DNA from: a virus
Virus record (IMG/VR): IMGVR_UViG_3300043444_000048
Location: 1 to 59,733 of that record
Length of the DNA stretch: 59,733 nt
Direction: 5' to 3' (one strand)
Positions 6,114 to 25,367 of this stretch are shown here, one piece after another (position 1 is the first letter of the stretch; every line of letters begins with the position of its first letter). A program made the position numbers and the translations under genes. The notes beneath the pieces are model-generated. The model did not search any database. It worked only from the letters and a program-made list of their open reading frames with translations, and was not told where the DNA came from.

Positions 6114-8534
6114 ATGCCATATTTTTATTGGAGCAATCAGTCAACCATATATAGGACTACTGGATATTCTGATGCTAGTCCAAGAAACACTATAACTATA
6201 CCTCTGGGTAGGGCTTCATACTTATATACAACTGGTGGTACAAATAACCCAATCTGGATTCAGCAAGCCAAGATGTATCTTGCAGGTAGGGGTGGAACTA
6301 GGACAGCATCTCTAGTTATTGGAAATTCTACAAGTTCAAGCTTTTCTCTTGCTAACGTTGGAACAGGTACAACAGAACCACAGGCTGTAGATATTGGTTG
6401 GAAGAATGTAGACTATAAATATTCTGGAACTTCTGCAGCGTCAATTTCTGTTGGATATAATACAAACGGAAGTACGTTTTTCGGAAGGTATGGAACTACT
6501 GCAGACACAACAACTTTGTGGGGAAGATGTTTTTATACTCAGGTTCCAACAGCTCCAACAAGCGTCACAGCGTCATCTCTAGCTGCAAACTCTATGACGG
6601 TGTCATGGTCTACACCAAGTGATGATGGTGGTTCACCAGTTTCTGGCTATGTTGTGCACATATCTACATCTTCATCATTTTCTTCTATAACTCTGGCAGA
6701 TGTTGGAAGCACTACATTTTCTGCACAGTTCACTGGCCTGACTTCAGGAACAACTTATTATGCTAGAGTTTTTGCATACAACGAAACGCATTATAATTTT
6801 CAAAACTATCCAATGTCAGTTTCTTCATCAATAGCTTCTTCTGTTATTTCTGCCCCAGCAGCACCAACCTGGACAACAGACACAACTCTTCCAGTTGCTC
6901 AAATAAACTCATCCTACTCAACCTCTGTTTCTGCAACGAATACGAATGCAGATGGATACTCAAAAATCTCTGGTGATTCTTGGATATCTGTATCTAGCAG
7001 CGGTAATGTATCTGGAACTGCTCCATCATCTGTAGGAACTTCATCTGTAACTATTAGGGCGACAGGACCAGGAGGATCTTCCGATAGGACATTCTCTATC
7101 CCAGTTGATGGCCCAGCCCCATCTTGGAATACTTCATCAGCTTTACCTAACGTAAATGTGTCAACATATTACTCGACACAACTTTCTGCATCCAATACAT
7201 CGTCATATTCAAAGTTGTCTGGTGGCACCAATGATTCTTGGGTATCAGTTTCATCGTCGGGCCTTGTAACTGGTACCTCTCCATCAAGCCCATCATCTGT
7301 ATCTTTTACAGTAAGGGCTACAGGAAACAATAAAAATACTGATAGGACATTTACTTTAGATGTTGTTCAGCCATCACCATCTTGGATAACTGGAACCACG
7401 CTCCCTTCTGCACAGCAGTCAGTATCGTATTCTACTAATGTATCTGCATCATACACCTCGTCATACTCTAAGGTTAGTGGTGACTCTTGGATTTCTGTAT
7501 CCTCTTCTGGAACGATATCTGGAACTCCAACAGCTTCTGGTTCTGCATCTGTAACGGTTCGTGCTACAGGACCAACTGGGCTAACATCAGATAGAACCTT
7601 TTCAATATCAGTAGAGTCTGCACCAGTGCCAACGTGGAACACGTCATCGCCACTACCAAGTGTGGTAGTTGGAACAGCATACAACACATCAGTGTCAGCT
7701 ACAAATGCTCAAACATACTCTAAGCTACCTGGTGGCACTAACGATTCTTGGGTGACTGTTTCGTCTAGCGGTCAGGTTTTTGGATCTCCTCCAGAAATTG
7801 GCACTACTATAGTAAAGATTCGAGCCACATCTTCACTAGGCTTGACATCCGACAAAGACTTTTCTATTACAGTGAATGCACCGCTACCAGCTTGGGTAAC
7901 TGGCTCAACTCTAACAGGTGGCAAATCTAACGTTGCTTATTCTGCTACCCTAGTTGCTTCAAACACAACTTCGTATGCAACTTCTGGAACTGTCCCATCC
8001 TGGATAGCTCTGAACACTTCTACGGGTCAATTAAGCGGTACTCCAACTCAAGAGGGAACATACTCTATAACAGTTATACCATCTGGCCCAGGTGGGGTAG
8101 GTCCAAGTAGAACCTTCTCAATTACAATTGCATCTGCTTCACCAGAGTGGATTGACTCAACATTACAAAATACTTTTGCAGTTTTAAATACGCCATACTC
8201 TGACGGATTCTCTGCATCAAATGTTACATCCTCTAGCGGTTATTTAATTACTGGGCTCCCAACAGGTATGACATACAGCTCAAGTACTGGTGCAATATCT
8301 GGTTCTCCAACTCAGACTGGTGCTTTTACAGTACAAGTAACAGCATTCGGTATTGATGGCACTACAATTACTTCCAGTGCTCCGCTTACTGTATTCTACC
8401 CTGGAGAAAGAAAAGGTCTTTCTGGAACATGGTCAAATATATCAGATATGAAACGGTTTAATGGAACTGTTTGGGTACCAGTACAGTTTGTTAAGAGAAA
8501 GACATCTTCTGGTTGGGAAAATGCTTCTAATTAG
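6114..8534 (+). CDS. Large Ig-like repeat adhesin (FN3 plus six putative-Ig repeats)
   Basis: An 806-aa extended protein with a GGGGGA ribosome binding site. Residues 1-142 form an N-terminal beta domain. An FN3 domain follows (about 145-242). Then come six repeats of roughly 80-88 residues of the He_PIG/putative Ig type. Each opens with P-x-W-x-T (PTWTTD, PSWNTS, PSWITG, PTWNTS, PAWVTG, PEWIDS), carries 'DSWISVSSSG..SGTP' in the middle and ends in 'RATGP.G..SDRTFSI'. The last 45 residues ('RFNGTVWVPVQFVKRK') are a tip motif common at the end of tail proteins. Its length suggests a long flexible side fibre. The stop overlaps the leftward lysis gene by eight bases. Confidence 0.8.
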   Translation: MPYFYWSNQSTIYRTTGYSDASPRNTITIPLGRASYLYTTGGTNNPIWIQQAKMYLAGRGGTRTASLVIGNSTSSSFSLANVGTGTTEPQAVDIGWKNVDYKYSGTSAASISVGYNTNGSTFFGRYGTTADTTTLWGRCFYTQVPTAPTSVTASSLAANSMTVSWSTPSDDGGSPVSGYVVHISTSSSFSSITLADVGSTTFSAQFTGLTSGTTYYARVFAYNETHYNFQNYPMSVSSSIASSVISAPAAPTWTTDTTLPVAQINSSYSTSVSATNTNADGYSKISGDSWISVSSSGNVSGTAPSSVGTSSVTIRATGPGGSSDRTFSIPVDGPAPSWNTSSALPNVNVSTYYSTQLSASNTSSYSKLSGGTNDSWVSVSSSGLVTGTSPSSPSSVSFTVRATGNNKNTDRTFTLDVVQPSPSWITGTTLPSAQQSVSYSTNVSASYTSSYSKVSGDSWISVSSSGTISGTPTASGSASVTVRATGPTGLTSDRTFSISVESAPVPTWNTSSPLPSVVVGTAYNTSVSATNAQTYSKLPGGTNDSWVTVSSSGQVFGSPPEIGTTIVKIRATSSLGLTSDKDFSITVNAPLPAWVTGSTLTGGKSNVAYSATLVASNTTSYATSGTVPSWIALNTSTGQLSGTPTQEGTYSITVIPSGPGGVGPSRTFSITIASASPEWIDSTLQNTFAVLNTPYSDGFSASNVTSSSGYLITGLPTGMTYSSSTGAISGSPTQTGAFTVQVTAFGIDGTTITSSAPLTVFYPGERKGLSGTWSNISDMKRFNGTVWVPVQFVKRKTSSGWENASN

Positions 8535-9042
8535 GAAAGTCTTTAATAATTAGCTTGGCACTATTTTTCGTAGACCAAGCACTCCAATTTTTCCCACCAT
8601 TAGACATCTGATAAGCAATCTTTGCATTTATTAGAGGATCAAACAAGTCTTTTTCAGAACCTAGACCGTACTTTTCCACCCTGTTATCTCCTAGTGAGCC
8701 AGACATGTTTATTTGAAATAGCCCGTAGCAGTCGCTAGACTTGTTGTATGCCATAGGACGCTTAGTGGATTCCTTAACTGCAATTGCCCAGGCATACTTC
8801 AATGAACTTCCAGAAAAGCCAGCTTCACGAAGAATAGATATTAATTCTTTATCTGATAGCATATGTTTTGGATCATATATAGCCTCTACAATCTTATACT
8901 CTCCACGCTCGAAATTAATCTCTTGTGAGGAGTAGGGCACTGTTAGCTTTTGCATTTCAGTATTAGCTGGCTGCCCCACTATGCTAGAAGCAGTTAGTGA
9001 GACAACCATGCTAATTGAACCAAATAAAATGTTAGTGTTCAT
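8527..9042 (-). CDS. Exported lytic transglycosylase / lysozyme-like enzyme
   Basis: A 171-aa enzyme that should cut the glycan strands of peptidoglycan. Residues about 5-23 are a hydrophobic signal sequence (ILFGSISMVVSLTASSIVG). The catalytic domain, about 62-157, has the SLT/goose-lysozyme-like layout: 'AIAVKESTKRPMAYN' with catalytic Glu91, 'CYGLFQINM' (106-113), and 'NAKIAYQMSNGGKNWSAW' (139-156). The gene overlaps the NlpC/P60 gene by one base (TAATG), so the two form a two-enzyme lysis operon. It converges on the Ig-repeat gene with an eight-base overlap. Export by Sec would make it independent of a holin. A virion-associated role cannot be excluded. Confidence 0.85.
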   Translation of the reverse strand: MNTNILFGSISMVVSLTASSIVGQPANTEMQKLTVPYSSQEINFERGEYKIVEAIYDPKHMLSDKELISILREAGFSGSSLKYAWAIAVKESTKRPMAYNKSSDCYGLFQINMSGSLGDNRVEKYGLGSEKDLFDPLINAKIAYQMSNGGKNWSAWSTKNSAKLIIKDFPN

Positions 9043-9629
9043 TAATTTTTTATTACCCTTACAAAAGAAATTTCACTTTGTGCAAACCAGCTATCAGTTA
9101 GCTTAATAATTTCAGTCTTGGTTCCTGGCTTTCTTGCGTGTACAACTTTGCCATTTCCAATATAAATGCCAACATGATAATACTTTTCAGAATTAAGGTG
9201 CTTAAAAGCCACAATGTCTCCAGGTTTTGGGGTAGAGACATGGGTTCCTGCATATCTAGCCTGTTTGCTAGCAGAATGTTCTAGCTCAACGCCAAGTCCT
9301 TCATAGAACCATCTAGTAAGCCCAGAGCAGTCCCATCCAGACGGAGAAGATCCACTGAAAATATATGGAACACGGTTAACGTATTTCTTTAGCTGCTTGA
9401 TTCTTTTTTCAAGAGCAACGGCGTTTTTTTGTTTGGCAACGCTCTCAGCCATTTTAGCGATGTTTAGCTCACGCTCTTGCTTTACTGCTATCGAGTAGTT
9501 TATTACACTTTGCTGTTTTATATTTGTATTAACGCTTTGGGCGTTATGTCGAATATCTCCAACAGCGATTGATGCAGAACAGCTAACAACTAGCAGCCCT
9601 GCGATTCCTAGTATTGCAATCTTCTTCAA
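9042..9629 (-). CDS. NlpC/P60 peptidoglycan peptidase with lipobox signal peptide (endolysin)
   Basis: I take TTG at 9629 as start because AGGAGG lies six bases before it, although the frame is open further upstream. The 195-aa product begins MKKIAILGIAGLLVVSC, a signal peptide with a VVSC lipobox at Cys17. A coiled-coil linker follows at about 45-82. The NlpC/P60 domain spans about 83-190, with catalytic Cys101 in 'WDCSGL', His152 in 'YHVGIYIG' and His164 in 'VVHAR'. Such enzymes cleave D-Glu to diamino-acid bonds in stem peptides. The gene has its own promoter and a hairpin in the leader. A lipoprotein anchor is unusual for an endolysin. Confidence 0.88.
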   Translation of the reverse strand: MKKIAILGIAGLLVVSCSASIAVGDIRHNAQSVNTNIKQQSVINYSIAVKQERELNIAKMAESVAKQKNAVALEKRIKQLKKYVNRVPYIFSGSSPSGWDCSGLTRWFYEGLGVELEHSASKQARYAGTHVSTPKPGDIVAFKHLNSEKYYHVGIYIGNGKVVHARKPGTKTEIIKLTDSWFAQSEISFVRVIKN

Positions 9630-9644
9630 GTTGCACCTCCTAAA

Positions 9645-9670
9645 GCAAAAAGCACCTTTTTTAAGGGTGC
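9645..9670 (-). terminator. Weak hairpin with U-tract in the leader of the lysis operon (possible attenuator)
   Basis: On the minus strand GCACC (9670-9666) pairs with GGTGC (9656-9652) and is followed by TTTTT. It lies between the promoter at 9688-9716 and the AGGAGG of the endolysin gene. A five to seven base-pair stem is weak, so partial termination or mRNA protection are both possible. Confidence 0.5.
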
Positions 9671-9687
9671 CGTTCGGTTGTCTAAAT

Positions 9688-9716
9688 AGTTTAGCACGAT
9701 TTTGGTTAAAAATCAA
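9688..9716 (-). promoter_or_regulatory. Promoter of the leftward lysis operon
   Basis: On the minus strand TTGATT (9716-9711), a 17-base spacer ending in TGC, then TAAACT (9693-9688). The extended TG element partly compensates for the imperfect boxes. Start is expected near 9681, giving a leader of about 52 bases. It faces away from the rightward promoter at 9728-9736. Confidence 0.6.
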
Positions 9717-9727
9717 CTGAAATCCTA

Positions 9728-9736
9728 TGTTATAAT
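9728..9736 (+). promoter_or_regulatory. Extended -10 promoter, leaderless start
   Basis: TGT-TATAAT followed by six bases and the ATG at 9743, with no Shine-Dalgarno. It is divergent from the lysis promoter and restarts rightward transcription of fibre genes. Confidence 0.65.
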
Positions 9737-9742
9737 TAAACA

Positions 9743-10153
9743 ATGGCAACGCTAAGAGGTTCAGCCTCATCTTACGACATTGGGAATGTACCCCCAAGAA
9801 TTAATTGGACTATTGTTCGAGGTGACACAGCCTCATTCAGGGTATATGTAACTGACGACAATAAAGAGGCACTAAATATTCCAGACTGGAATATCTCTAT
9901 GCAGATTAAAAGACCAAACCTAGCAGCTAACCTTGGTAAGATAACCGATGACGCTACGCTAGTTCTTGACCTTACTCCGTCTGCAGACAGCGATGATCTA
10001 GCAGGAGAGTTTACGGTTTCTCTTACAGCTGCACAGTCAGCGATACTTCAAACTGGAGATATTTTTGATATTGAGCTATCCCTTCCACAGGATGAATTAG
10101 TTTGGACTGTTGCCCAGGGCAGTGTAATTATTATTGAGGACGTTACTGCATAA
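9743..10153 (+). CDS. BppU-like baseplate/fibre attachment protein (copy 3)
   Basis: This 136-aa protein repeats the BppU-like pattern of the 2674 product: 'RINWTIVRGDTASFRVYVTD' at about residues 19-38, a second half with 'LSLPQDELVWTVAQGSVIIIEDV' that matches 'VIVANDTVWTPVIGTITVLGDV' of copy 1. Predicted all-beta. It probably docks the downstream fibre proteins to the tail tip. The stop overlaps the next start by one base. The gene starts the second part of the fibre block after the lysis cassette, from a leaderless-type promoter. Confidence 0.65.
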   Translation: MATLRGSASSYDIGNVPPRINWTIVRGDTASFRVYVTDDNKEALNIPDWNISMQIKRPNLAANLGKITDDATLVLDLTPSADSDDLAGEFTVSLTAAQSAILQTGDIFDIELSLPQDELVWTVAQGSVIIIEDVTA

Positions 10154-13457: not shown

Positions 13458-16154
13458 ATGGCAACTAGAATGCAGCAAAGAAGAGGAACAGCCTCTCAAT
13501 GGACTACTGCTAACCCTATTCTGGCAGCTGGTGAAATTGGTTTTGAATCAGATACTGGCCAGTTTAAGATTGGTGATGGTACCAACTACTGGGCTGACCT
13601 ATCTTACTTCAAGAACATTGACGACCTTGGTGGAAACCTAGACGACTACGTTCCAATTAGCTTGCTCGCTCAGCCAGAAGGTGTTGCCACACTAGATGTA
13701 AATGGTCAGGTACCATCAGATCAGCTTGGAAACGCTGTTACAAGCCTTTCTGGCTACGCTACCGAAACATATGTCAATGATGCAATTGCTGGCGTTGTAG
13801 ACGGTGCTCCTGCCCTCCTAGACACGCTTAACGAAATTGCCACGGCTATTGCTGATGATGAGAACTATGCGGTATCAACAGTAAACTACATTAACCAGCA
13901 AGTAGACGATCTTGAGGTTGCTATTGGTAACGCAATCACTACAGCAGAAACCACAACAAATACCGCAATTGACACATTTGAGCAGAACGTTATTGTTCCT
14001 ATCCAGTCAGATGTAACTACACTACAGTCTAACGTACTAAATCTTGATGGGTCTAAGCAAGACAAGATTGATGGAGTTTCCGACGTTGAGATTGGCTACC
14101 TTGCCAACGTAACATCAGATATCCAAACACAGATTAACGCAAAGGCAGATGGTTCTCACACCCACACTGTAGGAGAAATAACTGGAATCACCGTTTCTGC
14201 TGAAGAAATTAACTCTTTGGTAGGTATCACAGATGATGTCCAAGTTCTTTTGGATGGAAAGGCTGGAGTAATCCACACCCATAGCCTATCTGATATTACA
14301 GATGTAACCGCTACCGTAGCCGAAGTAAACGTTTTGGATGGAATTACAGCCACCACAGCTGAGCTCAACATTCTAACTGGAGCTACTGTAACTGCTCTAG
14401 AGCTAGACACCTTGTCTGGTGCAACATCAAATATTCAAAACCAGCTAGATGATAAAGCTGCTGCAACTCACGTCCACTCTTTGGTAGACGTTACAGACGT
14501 TACTGCAACCACTACAGAAGTAAATTATCTATCTGGAGTGACTTCAGGTCTTCAGTCTCAGCTAGACGACAAGGCAGCAGCTTCACACTCGCATGCAGTA
14601 TCAGACCTTACTGGCGTAACTGTAGATGCTACAGCTATTAACTCGCTATCTGGAGTCCAGGGTAATGTTCAAAGCCAGCTAGATGGAAAGGCTGATGACC
14701 CTCATACACACTTCCTGCAGAATATTACAGATGTGTCTGCAACAGCGTCGGAGGTTAACTACTTGTCTGGAGTAACTTCTGGAATTCAAGGACAGCTAGA
14801 TGCTATTTCTGGAGACGTTTCAGACATCTCTGACGCACTTGTAACGAAGCAAGATAAGGTTGCTGGAATTACCGATACTGAAATTGGCTATCTAGATGGA
14901 GTAACATCTCTCATTCAGCAACAGCTAGATGGCAAGTCTGCAATTGGACACACTCACGGCATTTCAGATGTTTCTGGAGTAACTGCCACTACAACAGAAA
15001 TTAATCACCTTGTTGGTGTATCTAGTGCTATCCAAGACCAACTAGATGATAAGGCTGCAGCAACACACACTCACCCACAATCAGACATTACGGATCTAGT
15101 AGCTGACCTCGCATCTAAGGCAGATTTGGCAGGTGCAACATTCAGCGGTAGCGTAGAAGTTCCAAGCATGACAGTAACTGGTAACCTAGTTGTTCAAGGA
15201 ACCACTACTACAGTAGACACCACAAACTACTCTATTCGTGACAACATGCTATACATGAACCAAGCAGGAGTATTTGCAATTTCTGACGCTATTGGCAATG
15301 GAGCTACAGTTACGTATACTGCACAAGATCATGACTTCCAGGCTGGAGACTATATTGTTGTTACTGGTGTAAATCCATCTGGTTACAATATTGCTGGAAC
15401 AGACTTGCTGACAATAGACTCAGTTACCAATAATACCTTTACTGTAACAAAGTCAGATACTGGAACATATGTTTCTGGAGGTAGTGCCAGAGGAAAGTCT
15501 GCAGCTAACCCAGACCTAGGGTTTGCAGCTGGTAGAACAACCGCAGAGGGGTATGCTCACGCTGGACTGTTCCGTGATGCCTCAGATGCAACATTTAAGT
15601 TTTTTGATGGCTACACACCAGAGCCAGACGAGTCTCTATATATTGATACTGCCCACGCTAGCTTTGCCTTGGCACCAATCGAAGTTGCAGCAGTAACTAC
15701 TGGCGACCTAGACGTATCTGGAGCTGTGTCTGGTATATCTACATCTGATCTGGATGATGTAACGCTGTCTTTTGCATCAGATAAGGATGTTCTTGTCCAT
15801 GACGGTTCTGGCTGGGTAAACAAGTATGTTAACGCAATCCCAACAAAGATTAGTCAAGGATCTGTGGTTAGCAATAACTATGAGCTGGTAGCAGCTGATG
15901 CTGGAAAGATTGTTGAGATCTCAAATGCTAACGCAACTACAGTAACCATTCCAAGTGATGAAACATTCGCAGTAGGATCTATGATTGTTGTGTCTCAGAC
16001 AGGTGCTGGGCAAGTAACAGTTGTAGTCGAAGATTCTGGAATACAGACACTAAACTCTACCCCTGGCAGCAAACTGAGAGCACAATGGTCAGTTGCAACA
16101 TTGCTGAAGCGTTCAGCTAACACATGGCTAGTATACGGAGATTTGGTGGCTTAA
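13458..16154 (+). CDS. Long tail fibre with Mtd-like N-terminus and GHTH repeats (898 aa)
   Basis: Residues 1-50 ('RMQQRRGTASQWTTANPILA', 'GEIGFESDTGQFKIGDG') match the N-terminal attachment domain found in Mtd-type and other fibres. 'VDGAPALLDTLNEIATAI' follows. Roughly eight to nine repeats of about 40 residues then cover about 220-565, each with 'HTH..SDITDVTAT..EVNYLSGVTS.IQ.QLDDKAA'. Then come 'VTGNLVVQGTTTTVDTTNY' (a T4-like fibre motif), a beta region and a C-terminal domain shared with the 319-aa fibre ('QGSVVSNNYELVAADAGKIV'). It is a trimeric long fibre and probably a main host-binding protein. Confidence 0.85.
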   Translation: MATRMQQRRGTASQWTTANPILAAGEIGFESDTGQFKIGDGTNYWADLSYFKNIDDLGGNLDDYVPISLLAQPEGVATLDVNGQVPSDQLGNAVTSLSGYATETYVNDAIAGVVDGAPALLDTLNEIATAIADDENYAVSTVNYINQQVDDLEVAIGNAITTAETTTNTAIDTFEQNVIVPIQSDVTTLQSNVLNLDGSKQDKIDGVSDVEIGYLANVTSDIQTQINAKADGSHTHTVGEITGITVSAEEINSLVGITDDVQVLLDGKAGVIHTHSLSDITDVTATVAEVNVLDGITATTAELNILTGATVTALELDTLSGATSNIQNQLDDKAAATHVHSLVDVTDVTATTTEVNYLSGVTSGLQSQLDDKAAASHSHAVSDLTGVTVDATAINSLSGVQGNVQSQLDGKADDPHTHFLQNITDVSATASEVNYLSGVTSGIQGQLDAISGDVSDISDALVTKQDKVAGITDTEIGYLDGVTSLIQQQLDGKSAIGHTHGISDVSGVTATTTEINHLVGVSSAIQDQLDDKAAATHTHPQSDITDLVADLASKADLAGATFSGSVEVPSMTVTGNLVVQGTTTTVDTTNYSIRDNMLYMNQAGVFAISDAIGNGATVTYTAQDHDFQAGDYIVVTGVNPSGYNIAGTDLLTIDSVTNNTFTVTKSDTGTYVSGGSARGKSAANPDLGFAAGRTTAEGYAHAGLFRDASDATFKFFDGYTPEPDESLYIDTAHASFALAPIEVAAVTTGDLDVSGAVSGISTSDLDDVTLSFASDKDVLVHDGSGWVNKYVNAIPTKISQGSVVSNNYELVAADAGKIVEISNANATTVTIPSDETFAVGSMIVVSQTGAGQVTVVVEDSGIQTLNSTPGSKLRAQWSVATLLKRSANTWLVYGDLVA

Positions 16155-16156
16155 TT

Positions 16157-17764
16157 ATGAGAATATTTGGATTTGGTGGTAAGTTCCTGGGTGGCAAGTT
16201 TGAAGATGATTTTAATCGTCCAAATACTACCACTGGATTGGGTGTCTCAAGCAGCGGTACAGCTTGGGAAACTGTTAGTGGAACTATTAACGTAGAAAAC
16301 GGTAAAGCTGTATCCACTCCACCATCAACTCCATCTACAGGAAGCTCATACCCTATGTCAGTTATTGAGGCACAGGATGAGAATGCTATAATTACGCTAT
16401 CTGACACTAATGAAGGATCCTCTGTTGCTCTTTGGGTTCAGTCAAGCCAAGACTGGTGGATGGTATCAGTAGACTCTACCTTTAACACCATTCCAGGTGC
16501 AGTTAACTATACATCTGGAACACCTCTAGTGTATACCTCTAGCGGACCAACGTATACAAAGGGTGCTACCACCTATACCGATGCCTTGGGAACATATACA
16601 TCAAACACTCCATATACTCAGGGTACAACAACTTATACATCTGGAACAACTGGATATACAGCTGGATCAACACTATACTCTGTTGGTGGCACCTCATATA
16701 CTTCTGGACCAGCAAACTATACTGCGTCAACAGTTTATAGCTCATACACGCCATACACTGCATCTACGGCCTATACAACTGCTGGCGGTGGGGTTTACTC
16801 ATTTGCGAACTACTCGTTTGATGATACATACTACACTCAGGGACCAACCCTTTATGGTGCAGCAACAAACTACACGATGAACCAGCCATATACTTCTAGC
16901 AGAAGCTACACATCTTCTAGAAGCTATACTTCAGGTAGCTCATTTACAAAGTCTACGGCATACACCATGAAGTTTGCACCATATGCCTGGACAGCTGGTC
17001 CATCTACCTATACAAAGTCTACCAACTATACTGCATCAGCAATTTCCTATACGGCATCCGCTGCAAACTATACTGGCGGAACTGCAAACTTTACATCTAC
17101 TACAAATTATATTAATTTTGGAACAGCATATTCTAGTCAAAATGTTTATATTTTATGGCAAAGCGGTACCTACACAGAGCCTACAACCTACACTCAAGGA
17201 CCAACCAACTACTATGCTGGTAGCTCATACGTAATTTCAGGACCAACAACGTATACGCAGAATGGACCGTTTTACACCTCTAACACTCCGTACACCACCG
17301 TAGTGCCTTACACTTCAAACACCCCATATACATCAAACACACCTTATAGCAGTGTTAATAACTATACAAGTAGCGTGGTGTATACAAGTGCTGACAACTA
17401 TACTGCAAATATTGCATACACCTCTAACCACACATATACTAAGGGTCAGGATCCAGATACATATGCCTATGCAGCATATCTTAAGATTAAAAAGTCTGTC
17501 AATAATGTTGTTACGACGGTTAGCTCTTCACTTGTATCAACCGTGTCTACCATCAAGTCTATAATTGTTCAAACATCTGGCAATCAAATTACTGCAAAAG
17601 GCTTTTCTGACGACAATTTTGTTGCCCAAATAGGAAATGATTTGGTTTATACTGCAACTGGTGCTATTGTAGTAGCAAAATATGGAATTTCTCTATCTAA
17701 TGCAGAATACGATCAAAGTGCTATAATAGGTACTGAAATTGTTATAGATAAAAACAATGCATAG
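16157..17764 (+). CDS. LamG-like adhesin interrupted by a long Tyr-Thr repeat region
   Basis: I start at ATG 16157, just after the stop of the upstream gene and behind GGTGG; an in-frame ATG at 16124 lacks a ribosome binding site. The 535-aa product begins as a concanavalin/LamG-like sandwich ('FEDDFNRPNTTTGLGVSSSG', 'WWMVSVDS', to about residue 108). At that point about 325 residues of imperfect 6-7-residue repeats of the form YT-x(4-5) (YTSSGPT, YTKGATT, YTSNTP) interrupt it. The sandwich pattern resumes at about 433 ('YAAYLKIKKSVNNVVTTV', 'IIVQTSGNQITAKGFSDDNF'). It lies among fibre genes and is most likely an adhesin. The repeat fold is unknown. Confidence 0.75.
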   Translation: MRIFGFGGKFLGGKFEDDFNRPNTTTGLGVSSSGTAWETVSGTINVENGKAVSTPPSTPSTGSSYPMSVIEAQDENAIITLSDTNEGSSVALWVQSSQDWWMVSVDSTFNTIPGAVNYTSGTPLVYTSSGPTYTKGATTYTDALGTYTSNTPYTQGTTTYTSGTTGYTAGSTLYSVGGTSYTSGPANYTASTVYSSYTPYTASTAYTTAGGGVYSFANYSFDDTYYTQGPTLYGAATNYTMNQPYTSSRSYTSSRSYTSGSSFTKSTAYTMKFAPYAWTAGPSTYTKSTNYTASAISYTASAANYTGGTANFTSTTNYINFGTAYSSQNVYILWQSGTYTEPTTYTQGPTNYYAGSSYVISGPTTYTQNGPFYTSNTPYTTVVPYTSNTPYTSNTPYSSVNNYTSSVVYTSADNYTANIAYTSNHTYTKGQDPDTYAYAAYLKIKKSVNNVVTTVSSSLVSTVSTIKSIIVQTSGNQITAKGFSDDNFVAQIGNDLVYTATGAIVVAKYGISLSNAEYDQSAIIGTEIVIDKNNA

Positions 17765-17778
17765 CAGATAGGATTAAT

Positions 17779-18468
17779 GTGAAAATAATTAGATTTTTTT
17801 CAAAAAAAATTTATGATGGTCTAGGCCAGCCGACAACGGCAAAAAAGCATCTTCCTCAATGGTATAAAGACTCAGAATCGACCTTTATAACTGATGAAGG
17901 CTCTGACCACCCTGGGCTGAAGAAGTGTATTCCATTTCTGGACTCTATGCTTTCTGGATATATGCTAGTTACTCCAGTAGATGTTTTTATATCTCATAAC
18001 GAAGACGGAACTCCAAATATTAGGTGGAACTCATCAGAATTTTTTATAGATTTTATTTCAGAGCGAACAAAGCTTCTAGGCGAAAAAATGCCAAGACCAG
18101 CAGGACATTTTCCAAATCACTTAGCATTTAGGGGTACTTGGGGATTTCGATTGCCAAGAGGTTGGAGTGTGCTAGTAACCCAGCCATTTAATAGACATGA
18201 TTTGCCATGGACGTTGACTTCTGGAATAATGGACGCTGATCAGTTTTCTACTAGCGGTAATCTTCCATTTTTCCTTAGAAAAGACTTCGTCGGCATGATT
18301 CCAGCAGGAACCCCTATTGCACAGCTAATCCCAATAAAACGTGCATCGTGGAAGGCAATCTATAATGATCAAGGAATTGCGTATCTGGATGATTTGCAGA
18401 CTGCAGCGGTAAGAAGTCCTGGGAAAAGTTATAAGAAACTGTTCTGGCAAAGAAAGGACTATACATAG
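17779..18468 (+). CDS. DUF6065-like protein, copy 1
   Basis: GTG start. A 229-aa protein with 'LPQWYKDSE', 'LKKCIPFLDSMLSGYML', 'RLPRGWSVLVTQPFNRHDLPW' and 'PFFLRKDFVGMIPAGTPIAQ'. These blocks recur in the 216-aa product of 18895-19545. I associate them from memory with the DUF6065 family of phage and bacterial proteins. The function is not known. The pattern is that of a soluble, compact alpha/beta or beta protein, without signal or membrane segment. It lies inside the fibre block, in a three-gene group with overlapping ends, and so could be an accessory of fibre assembly or modification. Confidence 0.65.
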   Translation: MKIIRFFSKKIYDGLGQPTTAKKHLPQWYKDSESTFITDEGSDHPGLKKCIPFLDSMLSGYMLVTPVDVFISHNEDGTPNIRWNSSEFFIDFISERTKLLGEKMPRPAGHFPNHLAFRGTWGFRLPRGWSVLVTQPFNRHDLPWTLTSGIMDADQFSTSGNLPFFLRKDFVGMIPAGTPIAQLIPIKRASWKAIYNDQGIAYLDDLQTAAVRSPGKSYKKLFWQRKDYT

Positions 18469-18908
18469 TGCTATTTAAAAAAAAGAAGAATCAAGAGGTC
18501 TATGGAGATTTCTTGTACGAGTACAGACCAACAGTATCTTCGTTGCTGAAGCAATATCTAGAAACTAAGATCGCAAAAGAGAGGCTCGTAAAAGAGTCGC
18601 CTAAGCGAGAGGGTGCTGTTTTTAGACCACATGAAGATATCCTGAAGTCCTTACCACTAAAGTATATTGCTGTTGTTAAAGATAACACTGTAGTTGAAAT
18701 GATTCGTGTTAATGAACAGACCGCAGATATCTTGCTTGATCCATTAGTTAGTCTCGTTGGTTTTAATCCAGAAGAGGTTGTCGTCCAGATAGGCATGATC
18801 TGTGTAGATGGAAACTTTGTTTTCCGTGCAGATATTCCAGAAGAGAACTCAGATTTTATTAACTCAGACACTACATTTGACGAGGAGATTTCTGATGAAA
18901 AAGATTAA
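18468..18908 (+). CDS. Hypothetical protein between DUF6065-like paralogs (146 aa)
   Basis: GTG start overlapping the previous stop by one base (TAGTG). The protein begins with a lysine cluster (MLFKKKKNQE), has a helical middle part and a C-terminal domain with 'LKYIAVVKDNTVVEMIRVNEQTADILL' (about 64-90), followed by an acidic tail (EENSDFINSDTTFDEEISDE). No family is recognised. Its last 14 bases overlap the next gene, and all three genes probably act together. Confidence 0.6.
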   Translation: MLFKKKKNQEVYGDFLYEYRPTVSSLLKQYLETKIAKERLVKESPKREGAVFRPHEDILKSLPLKYIAVVKDNTVVEMIRVNEQTADILLDPLVSLVGFNPEEVVVQIGMICVDGNFVFRADIPEENSDFINSDTTFDEEISDEKD

Positions 18909-19545
18909 GTTTAGATCAAAGCACCCAGAAATTGATTACGATACTCCAAAACCAGCATCAAAGATTGTCCCAGAGTGGTTTAGAAAGTTTGAAGGGGTAG
19001 TTGGTGGTCAAGAAACCATCAAGAAGTGCGTACCATTCTTAGATGCAATGACTGCTGGATACGTAATAACTTTAGCGTCAGACATATATGTTGACAAAAA
19101 CGGTATTCAGGACCTATCTAAACACAAGGTGGTCACTAATCACTTGATTGAGCAGATTGGTGAGATGAAGGTGCCATATGAGTTTATAAGAACGCCATTT
19201 AAGTGGATGAACTTTTTTTTGGCTAAGACCCCAAGAGGCTACAGTACAATGTTTGTGCATCCGCTAAATAGACCAGACTTGCCATTCTATACTCTGAGTG
19301 GTGTTGTAGATACCGATAAGTTTCCATTAGAAGTTAACTTCCCATTCTTTTTGAGAAAAGATTTTGTTGGAATTATTCCTGCAGGAACACCAATTGCTCA
19401 GGCAATTCCATTCAAGAGAGAAGACTGGTCTATGGAGCTTGACACAACGACTCCGTATCAGGAGCCAACCTTCACCCACACTATGCATAATCCTCCATTT
19501 GGATACTACAAGAGACACTTCTGGTCTAGAAAAAGATACTCATAA
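18895..19545 (+). CDS. DUF6065-like protein, copy 2
   Basis: I use ATG 18895, which has GAGGAG upstream and begins MKKIKFRSKHPEIDYDTPKP, rather than an upstream in-frame ATG at 18808. The 216-aa product repeats the copy 1 blocks: 'VPEWFRKFE', 'IKKCVPFLDAMTAGYVI', 'TPRGYSTMFVHPLNRPDLPF', 'FPFFLRKDFVGIIPAGTPIA', and the basic C-terminal 'YYKRHFWSRKRYS' (copy 1: 'SYKKLFWQRKDYT'). Conservation is strongest in the last third, so this is likely the functional core. It overlaps the preceding gene by 14 bases. Function unknown. Confidence 0.65.
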   Translation: MKKIKFRSKHPEIDYDTPKPASKIVPEWFRKFEGVVGGQETIKKCVPFLDAMTAGYVITLASDIYVDKNGIQDLSKHKVVTNHLIEQIGEMKVPYEFIRTPFKWMNFFLAKTPRGYSTMFVHPLNRPDLPFYTLSGVVDTDKFPLEVNFPFFLRKDFVGIIPAGTPIAQAIPFKREDWSMELDTTTPYQEPTFTHTMHNPPFGYYKRHFWSRKRYS

Positions 19546-20530: not shown

Positions 20531-21799
20531 ATGATAAACGGAATGCTATTTTCTGGAGCATCATCCTCTATAGCTAAAAGGAATGGCTGGATTATTAAGT
20601 ATTCTGGCGGATCTGTTTTTGATGGCACCTTGGTGCAAATACCCTCAGATTCAGAGCATGCGTACCTGATAACAAGAAATATAGAGATCAGAAAAATCAA
20701 GCTGTCTACTGGTATTGTTGTAGACAATTACCAATACTCACCGACACTTTCATCTCTTCATGAAGCTGTTGCAGATTCTTCGTCAAACATGTATATAACT
20801 GGAAGCTCTGGCAACTCTGTTTATGTATTAAAAATAAACTCAAGCATGCAGCTAGTCTGGCAAAAAACCATATCCAATAACAACATATCATTTGGAGAGG
20901 GTGCAATTAGGGTAGATTCTAGCGGTAACGTTTATGTAACAAACTACGAAAAGACCACGGGTTCCCTTATGACTATTCTTTCTAAGTTTGATTCAAACGG
21001 AAATCCTTTATGGCATAGACAGCTTGGCAACGGGTCTTCTGACGTATCTATCCAGCCATTAGCATTAGACAGCTCAAGTAACGTGTATGTGGCTGGATAC
21101 TTTGTTTCTGGGTCAAGTGCTGCTGCTGCTGTTATGAAGTTTGATACTAATGGCAACCACCAATGGACTACTTCTCTAGACAATTCTTCAGTTTGGGATG
21201 CATTCTTGAATGAGGTGCAGGTTGATTCTTCTGGAAACGTTTACGCCCTAGGATTCTCTGACAATGGTGGAAGGCGTTCTTTTATTGTTAAGCTGAACTC
21301 TTCTGGCTCTGTGCAATGGCAAAAAACTATTGGTGCAGGTGTAGGAGAGTGGATTGGTCCAGGGTCAATGGTTATGGATGGCACTACGCTGTACTTTAAT
21401 ATGTTTGGCCCAGTGGTAGAAAGCAATAATGTTATTAGCATTGTGGCACTTAATCTATCTGGAGTAAAGCAGTTTGAAAGACAGTTTAGATATTATGGTC
21501 AAAACCTTTATAGCCAAAAAATTTCTATAATTGGTAATCATATTTATGTTCCAGGGTATAGTCCATTTGGTTTTGCATTTAAGGTTCCCAAGGATGGCTC
21601 TAAAACTGGAACGTATAATTCATTTGGTAACGTTGTAACTTATACAAACTCTGCAACCCAACTTGTAGAGCAGAACACTACATATTCAGTATCCTCTGGA
21701 GGTATAAGCGTATCTTCAACGTCAAGAACAGTTGCTACCGCATCTGGGTCAGTAGTTCAGCAACCTGGCCTAACCAGTGCTATTGTGAGAAGATTCTAG
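20531..21799 (+). CDS. Beta-propeller (SBBP-repeat) tail protein
   Basis: A 422-aa protein with about six to seven blades of the SBBP type. Each blade has 'DSSGNVYV.G' or a close form ('DSSSNMYITGSSGNSVYVLK', 'DSSGNVYVTNYEKT', 'DSSSNVYVAGYFVS', 'DSSGNVYALGFSDN') followed by 'K(F/L)(D/N)S.G...W...'. This predicts a seven-bladed propeller, usually a ligand or glycan binding platform. It starts two bases after the 319-aa fibre gene, so both are probably co-expressed, and the propeller may be a partner or tip of that fibre. No signal peptide is seen. Confidence 0.75.
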   Translation: MINGMLFSGASSSIAKRNGWIIKYSGGSVFDGTLVQIPSDSEHAYLITRNIEIRKIKLSTGIVVDNYQYSPTLSSLHEAVADSSSNMYITGSSGNSVYVLKINSSMQLVWQKTISNNNISFGEGAIRVDSSGNVYVTNYEKTTGSLMTILSKFDSNGNPLWHRQLGNGSSDVSIQPLALDSSSNVYVAGYFVSGSSAAAAVMKFDTNGNHQWTTSLDNSSVWDAFLNEVQVDSSGNVYALGFSDNGGRRSFIVKLNSSGSVQWQKTIGAGVGEWIGPGSMVMDGTTLYFNMFGPVVESNNVISIVALNLSGVKQFERQFRYYGQNLYSQKISIIGNHIYVPGYSPFGFAFKVPKDGSKTGTYNSFGNVVTYTNSATQLVEQNTTYSVSSGGISVSSTSRTVATASGSVVQQPGLTSAIVRRF

Positions 21800-21824: not shown

Positions 21825-24800
21825 ATGTCAATCCTATCTAACTTGTATGCCGAAAGAGTTTTTTCAGAACAGCCAACCGCTCTTTGGGCACTAGATGATG
21901 ACGCAGACTTCATATCTCTGATTCCACCAGAGCTACGCTCAATGGATGGTTGGCACCTAACCAACGCATCAAAGTCACAGTCTTCAGATCTAATTAAGCA
22001 AATAAAGAAATCTCCTTTAATTAAATTTGAAACTACAAACTCTTTAGGCTTTACAGCAAAAAGTCCTGCAGTATTTAATGCACAGGATTTAGTGGAAGAA
22101 AAGGGGTCGTTTAGCATAGGCACCTATTTTTATTCCAATACAGATGAAATATCTGAGGTAAAAATTGGGTATGAGTATGCTAACGGAACACCAGGTGAAG
22201 TTACTACCTATGCTGTTACTACAAGTGGAGCCTGGGTGTTTTTATCAAACACTTATGCACTACCATCTCCAGAAGTAGATATAAAATTAACGCTTGAAGT
22301 AGTTACATCAACTGCTGGCTCTTACTCTTTTTATGTTAACGGATTTTCTGTAGGCCAGTGGTCGGAAAAATTTCACACGGTTTCTGATGGAATTGACTTA
22401 ATTGATTTACCAGAAAATATAAACATTGAAAATACAAAATGCTATCCTGCTTATGCTTACGGGTTTTCTGATAAAACTGGATACTATCTAGCTACAGGCA
22501 ATAATCTTTCAGCCTATAACGACGGCTTTCCGATGGTGTTTGGTGCATCAGGTGTTACTAGGATTGTTGGTAACCAAGGCAAGCCATCTTTGATTATTCC
22601 AGGAGGAGGCTTCCTTCATGATTTGGGTAGGTATCAGGACCTCACCCTGGAGTTTTGGCTAAGAGTCCTTAATATGTCTGTATCTCCTCAAAAAATTGTT
22701 GGACCCGTATTCTCTGAAGACGGTCTGTATGTAGATGGTCAGTTTTTAGTTCTTAAAATAGATAGGAATGTTCAGTCTTATTTTGTTGGTGAGTGGGAGA
22801 GACCAATGCTAATAGATTTTAGAGTATCTCCCAACACGTCAAGCGTAATGATCAATGGTGAAATTGTAATTAGCATGGATATTGATACAAAAGCTGTTCC
22901 AATGCCAGATGCTGTAGATAATGACTGGATAGGCTTTTACGGATTTACTGACAAGGTCTCTTTAGATATTGACTGTGTAGCATTATATTCATACCAGGTT
23001 CCATCAGTTGTTGCAAAAAGAAGATTTGTTTATGGTCAGGGTGTTGATGTTCCAGAAACTATAAATGGGTCGCTTGTCGGATCTGGTGTTACTATAGACT
23101 ACCCAGTTGCAGGGTATGCAAATAACTATATTTACCCAGACATGGGAAGATGGAGTCAAGGCATTTTCGACAATTTATCAACGGACGGCAGCTCCTTGTC
23201 TAGTCCAAAGTATGATTTGCCACTCTTTGTTTTTAAGAATAAGGATATCTCTTTAGACCAGTGGCTAGACCTATGCTATGACCAAGAAGGAAGTGAGGAC
23301 TTCTCATCGATAGACATGTCGCTAGCCGATACTGCTGATAAGTCTGGTGGGTATATTCTATTTGATAAGTTCAATATCTCTGGACAAGACACAAAAGCAG
23401 CCTATGGTATTTTTAAAACAAAAGATACTTCAGATAGACTGCTCTTTAAGCTGTTTAATAAAACTAACCAGGCAAGCCTTACTCTTTCAATAATTGATAG
23501 CAAGGCTGTTTACAGGTTTGAGTACCCAAACATGGAATCTTTAGAGGTTGAGTCTTCTCAATCAATTCCGATAAACTCTATATTCTTGGCAGGCTTTGAT
23601 GTAGACAAGATGGTTGCACATTTTGGTGGCATTGTGTCCAGGGTATTCTCTGACCCAAAGAAACTATCTCTATATGTAGCAGGAGACGAATCATTCTTAA
23701 ATACCTTTAACGGTAAGATATATAAGGTTGGGTTAGCTATTAAGTCTAATCTGCCAGAGATTGCAGACTGGTCATCTGAAGATGGAATTATGCTGGTTCT
23801 TGGAGAGAATGTTCCATTACTAGATGGTGGAGAGCCACCAACAAACTATACAGTTCTGGCAAATGCAGGAGAGCCCGACTCTGACCTGCTATCTACAAGA
23901 AGCGGTGGGCTTCCCACCCTGGGCACAACTCTTGAGTTGATTAATTATATTGCAGGGTACACACTAACTCCAAGACTATATTTGGGCAAGTTCATCATAG
24001 ATGTTGCATCCAAGGGTTACTGGCAAGACTTTGTTTCTTTGTCGCACTTTGGAAAAAATATGCCTAACCTAGAAGGCGATGCAATTCCAACTCTCAGTTA
24101 CTTGCAGTTTAACATAGATGTACCTAGGATGGATATCTTAGATCCCCTAGAGCCATGGCATCTGGATACCTCAAGCTTGCCAGTAAAGACATACGTTTCG
24201 TTCCAGTATTTGGCCTCTGGTGCAAATAAACTACTCAAAAATTTTACAGCGGTTCAACGAGCTTTAGCGAACTCCCCAGTAGTTCCAGGAGATGGTTGGA
24301 TGAATACTGCATACGAGGTTGTCTCTGGATCAGTTATCTATCTTCCATCTGGAGTAGATTATAGGAACCTTGCCCTTGTGTACCATATCAAGGTAGAAAC
24401 AAAGTCAGTATTTTCTAATGCTGTAAAAATTAAGCGTATGGAGACCTGCTCTCAGGCAATTAGCATTCACGAGCCACTAAAAATCAATACTAAGTTTGGT
24501 GTTCAAATATCTCCATATATTAAGAGAGGTCTGTACCAAGACTATCTGGGCAAAAATCCAGTATGCATTTATAAGAGAAGTACGCCATACATCCACCTGA
24601 CCAAGCAAAGTGGCATAAAGATGCTAGATTATTTTATTGAAGAGGGGGCTGAAAAGGGCATTTCTATACCAATAAATTCAAATCGTGTAGCCCAGTATGC
24701 AGTCGGAGCTATTCAGACATTTATCAACTATCAGGCTAGTGGCTTTCCAGAGCTTGAGGTAAAGATGATGGAGATCAAGGCCTATAATAGATCAACCTCT

Positions 24801-25367
24801 ATCATGCTTGTATCTGATGTCATTGATAATACCAGAGGAAAAATATTTGCAATAGACTCAAAAACAGGTCTTCCTGATCAGTTTGTTAATTTCTATCTTA
24901 ACGGAAAGTTGGTAAAGTCACCATACATTAATGCTAAGCAGTGGGATGTTTTGGCTATTCAGTTTATCGATGGAATGAAATTCGACAGCTTCTCTGGCTC
25001 TATAAATTTGTGTTCAGAGCAGATGCTATTCAACAATATTTCTACCTACAGGCTGTCAGAGATTCAGACATCTGTAACCTCTATTTTTAGAACCTGGGCA
25101 CAGCTTGAGCAGATGATAGATAAGCCAGGGAATGAGTCTACATACTGGGGAGACTTCTTGTCTGCAACACCACCGCTTTCTTGGGAGAATATCCTGTTTA
25201 TTCCTACGGTTCGACGTTATTTGATAGACCCAAAAGCTATTTTTGAGTCATATTCTGGTACAAACAGGATATCTGTATCTGATGATTCTGTATTAATGTT
25301 TAAAAATTATAGGTACACAGCATATTCAGATGTCAGATGGCGTTCAAACATTGCTTCACCAGTTTAG
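21825..25367 (+). CDS. Very large LamG-like minor tail protein (1180 aa)
   Basis: The protein contains at least two laminin-G/concanavalin-like regions. One is near 250-400 ('LTLEFWLRVLNMSVSPQKIV', 'VSPNTSSVMINGEIVISMDI', 'DNDWIGFYGF'). Another is near 470-660 ('GGYILFDKFNISGQDTKAAY', 'IFLAGFDVDKM', 'LSLYVAGDES'). The C-terminal half (about 700-1180) is beta-rich without a recognised family. Such proteins in long-tailed actinophages are minor tail or adhesion proteins. It is the last gene before the head module and has its own leaderless-type promoter. Confidence 0.7.
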   Translation: MSILSNLYAERVFSEQPTALWALDDDADFISLIPPELRSMDGWHLTNASKSQSSDLIKQIKKSPLIKFETTNSLGFTAKSPAVFNAQDLVEEKGSFSIGTYFYSNTDEISEVKIGYEYANGTPGEVTTYAVTTSGAWVFLSNTYALPSPEVDIKLTLEVVTSTAGSYSFYVNGFSVGQWSEKFHTVSDGIDLIDLPENINIENTKCYPAYAYGFSDKTGYYLATGNNLSAYNDGFPMVFGASGVTRIVGNQGKPSLIIPGGGFLHDLGRYQDLTLEFWLRVLNMSVSPQKIVGPVFSEDGLYVDGQFLVLKIDRNVQSYFVGEWERPMLIDFRVSPNTSSVMINGEIVISMDIDTKAVPMPDAVDNDWIGFYGFTDKVSLDIDCVALYSYQVPSVVAKRRFVYGQGVDVPETINGSLVGSGVTIDYPVAGYANNYIYPDMGRWSQGIFDNLSTDGSSLSSPKYDLPLFVFKNKDISLDQWLDLCYDQEGSEDFSSIDMSLADTADKSGGYILFDKFNISGQDTKAAYGIFKTKDTSDRLLFKLFNKTNQASLTLSIIDSKAVYRFEYPNMESLEVESSQSIPINSIFLAGFDVDKMVAHFGGIVSRVFSDPKKLSLYVAGDESFLNTFNGKIYKVGLAIKSNLPEIADWSSEDGIMLVLGENVPLLDGGEPPTNYTVLANAGEPDSDLLSTRSGGLPTLGTTLELINYIAGYTLTPRLYLGKFIIDVASKGYWQDFVSLSHFGKNMPNLEGDAIPTLSYLQFNIDVPRMDILDPLEPWHLDTSSLPVKTYVSFQYLASGANKLLKNFTAVQRALANSPVVPGDGWMNTAYEVVSGSVIYLPSGVDYRNLALVYHIKVETKSVFSNAVKIKRMETCSQAISIHEPLKINTKFGVQISPYIKRGLYQDYLGKNPVCIYKRSTPYIHLTKQSGIKMLDYFIEEGAEKGISIPINSNRVAQYAVGAIQTFINYQASGFPELEVKMMEIKAYNRSTSIMLVSDVIDNTRGKIFAIDSKTGLPDQFVNFYLNGKLVKSPYINAKQWDVLAIQFIDGMKFDSFSGSINLCSEQMLFNNISTYRLSEIQTSVTSIFRTWAQLEQMIDKPGNESTYWGDFLSATPPLSWENILFIPTVRRYLIDPKAIFESYSGTNRISVSDDSVLMFKNYRYTAYSDVRWRSNIASPV

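Follow-up and report, generated by a model that had tools for sequence, protein, structure and literature searches.

The window, i.e., the whole stretch of DNA analyzed here (59,733 nt; the virus contig of IMG/VR record IMGVR_UViG_3300043444_000048), encodes a protein, hereafter the split lectin, whose two ends are predicted to form one concanavalin/CBM66-type β-sandwich, split by a Tyr/Thr-repeat insert of about 320 residues. The sandwich frame is encoded at more than 200 IMG/VR loci and defines a viral family with a constant frame and a variable slot. The fold is already known, as is its use by phage tails, whereas the repeat-built variable split and its viral family are undescribed in the material searched: the open-licence literature, searched for the split-lectin family, its repeat, Cys-rich phage lectins, LamG insertions, and low-complexity tail adhesins, yielded nothing on the family.

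Gene Structure and Repeat Insert

The split-lectin gene occupies positions 16157..17764 on the + strand (535 aa plus stop), as indicated by the list of open reading frames, the start context, and a full-length relative (L001) of 84% identity; the interval agrees with that of the preliminary description. The ATG at 16157 lies 2 nt past the stop codon of the upstream tail-fiber gene, and a second in-frame ATG is present at 16124. A possible ribosome-binding region was read from the sequence inside the end of the fiber gene (16137..16149, + strand; GGAG at 16137-16140 and GGTGG at 16145-16149). The encoded protein consists of three parts, all on the + strand: the N-terminal half of the predicted sandwich (16157..16492, residues 1-112), which carries an NTTxGLG..W motif and the ALWVQSSQDWWMV strand and is conserved in relatives; the Tyr/Thr-repeat insert (16493..17449, about residues 113-431); and the C-terminal half of the sandwich (17450..17761, residues 432-535), which carries an ITAKGFSD motif.

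The 320-residue stretch between residues 113 and 432 contains 56 Tyr/Phe residues. Gaps of 6 or 7 residues constitute 65% of the gaps between successive Tyr/Phe residues; in 2,000 shuffles of the stretch, this share averaged 12% and never exceeded 27%. The [YF][TS] pair occurs 43 times (shuffle mean 21, maximum 33). Since the spacing is far above the shuffles, a chance origin of the repeat was rejected. Charged residues are rare (13/320, 4%) and Cys is absent; aromatic residues and Thr make up 18 and 23% of the insert, respectively, and Thr plus Ser about 38%. The Tyr-Thr array with few charges that had been noticed in this gene is thus real. Within it, blocks of period 7 (YTxGxTx) take turns with blocks of period 6 (YTSNTP). 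As judged from the Tyr positions on the + strand, the spacing is mostly 7 residues at 16532..16738 (YTxGxTx) and 17027..17110, and 6 residues at 16853..16963 and 17273..17437 (YTSNTP), the last block also corresponding to DNA repeat family D1. The spacing is irregular around residues 194-226 and 318-373.

At the DNA level, only one short tandem array within the insert reached a score (2.3 copies of 21 nt), and the nucleotide identity between repeat units is about 45-49%. The units have therefore diverged, and the repeat is not a recent slippage artifact; slippage is further opposed by the register of the repeat with that of L001, the two inserts differing by one codon indel in about 320 residues. 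Between the insert codons of the window protein and those of L001, 134 differences are synonymous and 59 non-synonymous; all 58 aromatic positions are kept, compared with 80% of the other positions. This pattern of substitution indicates a coding repeat that is subject to purifying selection. Given the shared register and the mostly synonymous changes, it is an old, selected protein feature. The mainly non-synonymous change that is the signature of diversity-generating retroelements was not found between these two inserts, and the synonymous-rich divergence disfavors targeted hypermutation by such an element. Positive selection is not shown either, since synonymous changes predominate in the insert in several of the pairs compared.

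Predicted Fold of the Split Lectin

The AlphaFold2 model of the split lectin, built with an 18-row family alignment, has pLDDT values mostly between 80 and 90 for most of both ends. Block means are 82-90 for residues 11-50 and 64-82 for residues 51-110 in the N-terminal half, and 82-89 for residues 441-500 and 65-87 beyond in the C-terminal half. Taken together (169 aligned residues within model residues 10-534), the two ends match single PDB domains, among them residues 689-878 of gp20, the central fiber protein of mycobacteriophage Douge (Z 16.1), and CBM66 (Z 14.6). An independent model of a distant Cys-type member (L030) gave the same fold and the same matches, and its insert, located at the same point, was again left unmodelled. 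By these predictions, the two ends are halves of one concanavalin/CBM66-type β-sandwich, as had been proposed from the sequence, and the alternative that the N- and C-terminal parts are unrelated domains was ruled out by the joint structural match of both the window protein and the Cys-type member. The insert is flanked by strands at residues 100-112 and 435-448, which probably pair in the model as the arms of a hairpin with an expanded turn. The repeat is indeed a single insertion between two strands, and its point of insertion is shared by all relatives checked.

Residues 116-430 have a pLDDT of about 30 in the model and are nearly devoid of regular secondary structure, apart from two short low-confidence strands at 138-149. 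No coils were predicted that would correspond to the β-solenoid or stacked-Tyr rod suggested in the preliminary description, and this suggestion found no support, although a confidence this low is no proof of disorder and leaves room for an unusual fold. The insert is probably flexible rather than rigid.

The same description had called the domain LamG-like. This term holds at the level of the superfamily fold, given the structural match, and fails at the level of the LamG family, for which no profile match was detected among 18 members at E 10; LamG entries are also absent among the structural matches listed, which is not evidence against kinship. No sequence-level relation to a solved member was found by phmmer with the protein (nothing up to E 10), the A4 profile search for a solved member returned one chance match only (E 2.3), and the split lectin contains no Pfam family at E 0.1. 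According to the model, the split-lectin domain is nearest to CBM66 and to actinophage central-fiber domains, not to the LamG family.

The closest of these, the C-terminal domain of Douge gp20 (PDB 8zdp/8zdq, residues 689-878), has the same β-sandwich (169 residues, rmsd 3.0) and is part of a tail-tip protein from an actinobacterial siphophage. A Douge construct comprising the tip and the C-terminal domain bound M. smegmatis cells and LAM/AM and alpha-glucan fragments (PMC13033339). The two proteins share about 15% identity and differ in arrangement: the Douge domain lies within a fiber chain, whereas the split lectin is encoded by a separate gene. The Douge domain is only about 190 residues long and thus lacks a comparable insert. 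By analogy with Douge, the sandwich of the split lectin may be a mount of the carbohydrate-binding type, although a shared fold alone is no proof of sugar binding. The CBM66 module of Bacillus subtilis (4azz, 4b1m) and the C-terminal domains of GH43 xylosidases possess the same sandwich (Z 14.6; Z 15.9 between CBM66 and the Cys-type relative), but these modules are enzyme-linked, have no long repeat insert, and show 10-12% identity. Another phage protein, the C-terminal receptor-binding domain of TM4 gp23 (9n6a), matched the fold of the Cys-type model only (Z 13.4, 6% identity). Finally, proteins of BFVD annotated as "uncultured Caudovirales phage" (A0A6J7WYT9, A0A6J7WRS3, A0A6J5RDN1, and others; 308-510 residues, uncharacterized) matched over the whole length with E 1.6e-5 or better at 13-21% identity, and are likely members of the split-lectin family, judging from these structural matches.

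A Viral Family with a Variable Slot

Relatives of the split lectin were recovered from IMG/VR by one scan for a DNA pattern and two scans by alignment; the Cys-type scan alone yielded 209 confirmed loci, 80 of which were kept, and 81 sequences entered the slot analysis. The sample is biased, since the relatives were found via conserved peptide or DNA patterns. Neither the frame nor the repeat was found in Pfam, PHROGs, or NCBIfam; for the repeat, this is in line with the first reading of the sequence. A tblastn search of 50,697 named phage records with four different queries, one without the insert, detected no family member, and there was none in 84,980 prokaryote genomes, where none of the 60 pattern stretches from bacterial and archaeal genomes was confirmed. 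In viral contigs, the YTxGxTx pattern matched members of the split-lectin family only. The same pattern occurs at six places in the genomes: four lie in short open reading frames (<160 aa, stop to stop) that resemble minisatellites, and the other two lack a YT array.

All 81 sequences share a constant frame but differ in the slot, which is filled by YT repeats, irregular Tyr/Phe-rich sequence, NPYNPC and TGGNC repeats, NYGTCY units, or CYQTC units. Length variation among relatives, raised in the preliminary description, is evident at this same slot: inserts range from about 60 to about 400 residues with a median of 123, the lone value of 25 residues belonging to a truncated contig. Compared with the frame, inserts contain fewer charged residues (4 vs. 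11%) and more aromatic (16 vs. 9%) and Cys (10 vs. 0.3%) residues. The longest Cys-type inserts (355-399 residues in L110, L114, and L115) are formed by the regular repeats STVPGNCATY, TYGTVMN, and PITYSCYTSTR; these differ from one another, and repeat expansion has therefore recurred in the slot. In the frame tree, the 17 Cys-free members form a single clade, supported at 100/99, which lies beside or within the lines that contain Cys. Under midpoint rooting, a provisional choice of root, the tree reads as a single putative loss of Cys followed by expansion of the Tyr repeat.

These data bear on the suggestion that the insert is a structural spacer, i.e., a regular rod (β-solenoid or stacked-Tyr sheet) that sets a distance without receptor contact. 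The regular 6/7 spacing within blocks, the almost identical insert length in L001, and the full set of aromatic positions kept between the two proteins are what such a rod would show. However, the 6/7 spacing is mixed and irregularly broken, no solenoid appears in the model, the insert length varies severalfold across the family, and the shift in chemistry from Tyr/Thr to Cys-rich sequence would be needless for a spacer; we consider this explanation unlikely.

Averaged over 20 pairs of relatives, identity is 86% in the frame and 68% in the insert, with the insert lower in 19 of the 20. Within the inserts of these pairs, Cys is kept at 94% of positions, aromatic residues at 86%, and other residues at 64%; these conservation figures are descriptive, because the aligner favors aromatic matches and the pairs overlap. 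Between the window protein and L001 the frame and insert identities are little different (86/82/88%), and the faster divergence of the insert is hence a family trend that is unseen in the closest pair. One further locus, L007, harbors tandem split-lectin genes (172-1422 and 1445-2932) with similar frames and different inserts, a natural case of insert divergence after duplication.

The composition of the insert resembles that of sticker-and-spacer low-complexity domains described in the general literature. FUS-type low-complexity domains and the C-terminal heptads of RNA polymerase II have near-regular Tyr among Ser, Thr, Gly, Asn, and Pro, with few charges, and, like the insert, are not predicted to fold. 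The likeness is an analogy, with no homology claimed, and it differs in that the insert forms a loop whose two ends are fixed in a sandwich. Thr-rich ice-binding arrays were also considered as an analogy and dropped for want of support. Together with the conservation of Cys and aromatic residues above all other insert positions, the resemblance would suit a role in self-association, in which the Tyr array (Cys in relatives) stiffens the tail tip by joining neighboring fibers or subunits through Tyr stacking or disulfides, the sandwich itself contacting the host. Inserts nevertheless diverge faster than the frame, which is unusual for an internal packing surface, and Cys-free and Cys-rich versions share one slot, so that self-association appears quite unlikely.

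Gene Neighborhood and Virus

The gene directly upstream of the split lectin (13458..16154, + strand) encodes a tail fiber with Mtd_N and phage tail repeat-like domains (Pfam PF12789 and PF18454), and its C-terminal motif precedes the split-lectin genes of most relatives. Synteny thus places a fiber-type C-terminus directly upstream in the majority of the relatives checked, and adjacency to a tail fiber is shared by the window and its relatives. In L108, L096, L112, and others, the lectin is itself the C-terminal end of a longer chain, which looks like fibronectin-III repeats. The gene downstream (17779..18468, + strand) belongs to the PHROG 7084 family and is adjacent in close relatives as well.

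The portal protein is closest to those of Streptomyces siphophages (44-47% identity over 94-99%), and the gene order from portal through protease and capsid to tape measure is common to the window and phage Blueeyedbeauty. The portal, protease, capsid, and tape-measure genes are similar to those of Streptomyces siphophages in Stanwilliamsviridae, and by its related portal and head-tail gene order the virus is a Stanwilliamsviridae-like siphovirus.

Several other genes of the record were noted. The downstream gene has a PHROG 7084 paralog at 18808-19545, with a small gene between the two. In a tblastn search against named phages with the 17779-18468 protein, the matches listed are about 29-33% identical and come almost only from haloarchaeal tailed viruses such as HF2; the 18808-19545 protein has a weak DUF6065 match. 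The same tail-fiber neighborhood includes an Ig/fibronectin-repeat protein (6114-8534) and a β-propeller (SBBP) protein (20531-21799). Amid the fiber cluster, two genes lie on the - strand (8527-9797), one for an NlpC/P60 hydrolase and a short neighbor that reads like a transglycosylase. The gene at 21825-25367, which lies immediately upstream of the portal region, encodes an 1180-residue protein with no match in Pfam, PHROGs, or the 50,697 phage records.

A (GlcNAc) glycosyltransferase of family PF11397 is encoded at 844-1734 of the same record. Together with the high share of Thr and Ser, it would suit a mucin-like stalk, in which the insert is glycosylated by the phage enzyme and shields or extends the tail tip. 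Against this stands the distribution of PF11397, present in only 7 of 26 family records (6 over the curated cut-off) and not in L001, the records being fragments; moreover, the conserved insert positions are aromatic rather than Thr or Ser. We regard a mucin-like stalk as very unlikely.

Proposed Function

We give about even chances to the reading that the split lectin is a tail-fiber-associated adhesin of an actinobacteriophage-like siphovirus, whose sandwich displays a fast-evolving aromatic loop contacting host glycans. The two ends would close into a concanavalin/CBM66-type sandwich serving as a conserved mount, which probably docks at or near the end of the fiber encoded immediately upstream; in the virion, the protein would presumably sit at the fiber tip. 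The loop between two neighboring strands would have been expanded to about 320 nearly uncharged residues with an aromatic ring every 6-7 residues, a chain tethered at both ends and displayed outwards. Its rings may make many weak stacking contacts with glycans of the host surface. Since the insert changes more rapidly than the mount yet retains its aromatic lattice (Cys in relatives), it would act as an element of specificity or avidity. More tentatively, and in our view with less than even probability, one sandwich may serve as a fixed frame for interchangeable aromatic or Cys repeat loops, with the host contacted by a regular Tyr (or Cys) lattice in an unstructured chain rather than by a folded site.

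Most phages in nature are uncultured, and the split-lectin family, present in more than 200 viral contigs and in none of the named phage genomes searched, combines a conserved fold with a fast-changing repeat loop in the tail-fiber neighborhood, the place in which recognition of the host would be expected. Should the loop bind the host, recognition would proceed by spaced aromatic rings in a flexible chain, with the chemistry switched between Tyr and Cys in one slot, and the family could yield a new type of sugar-adhesive protein.
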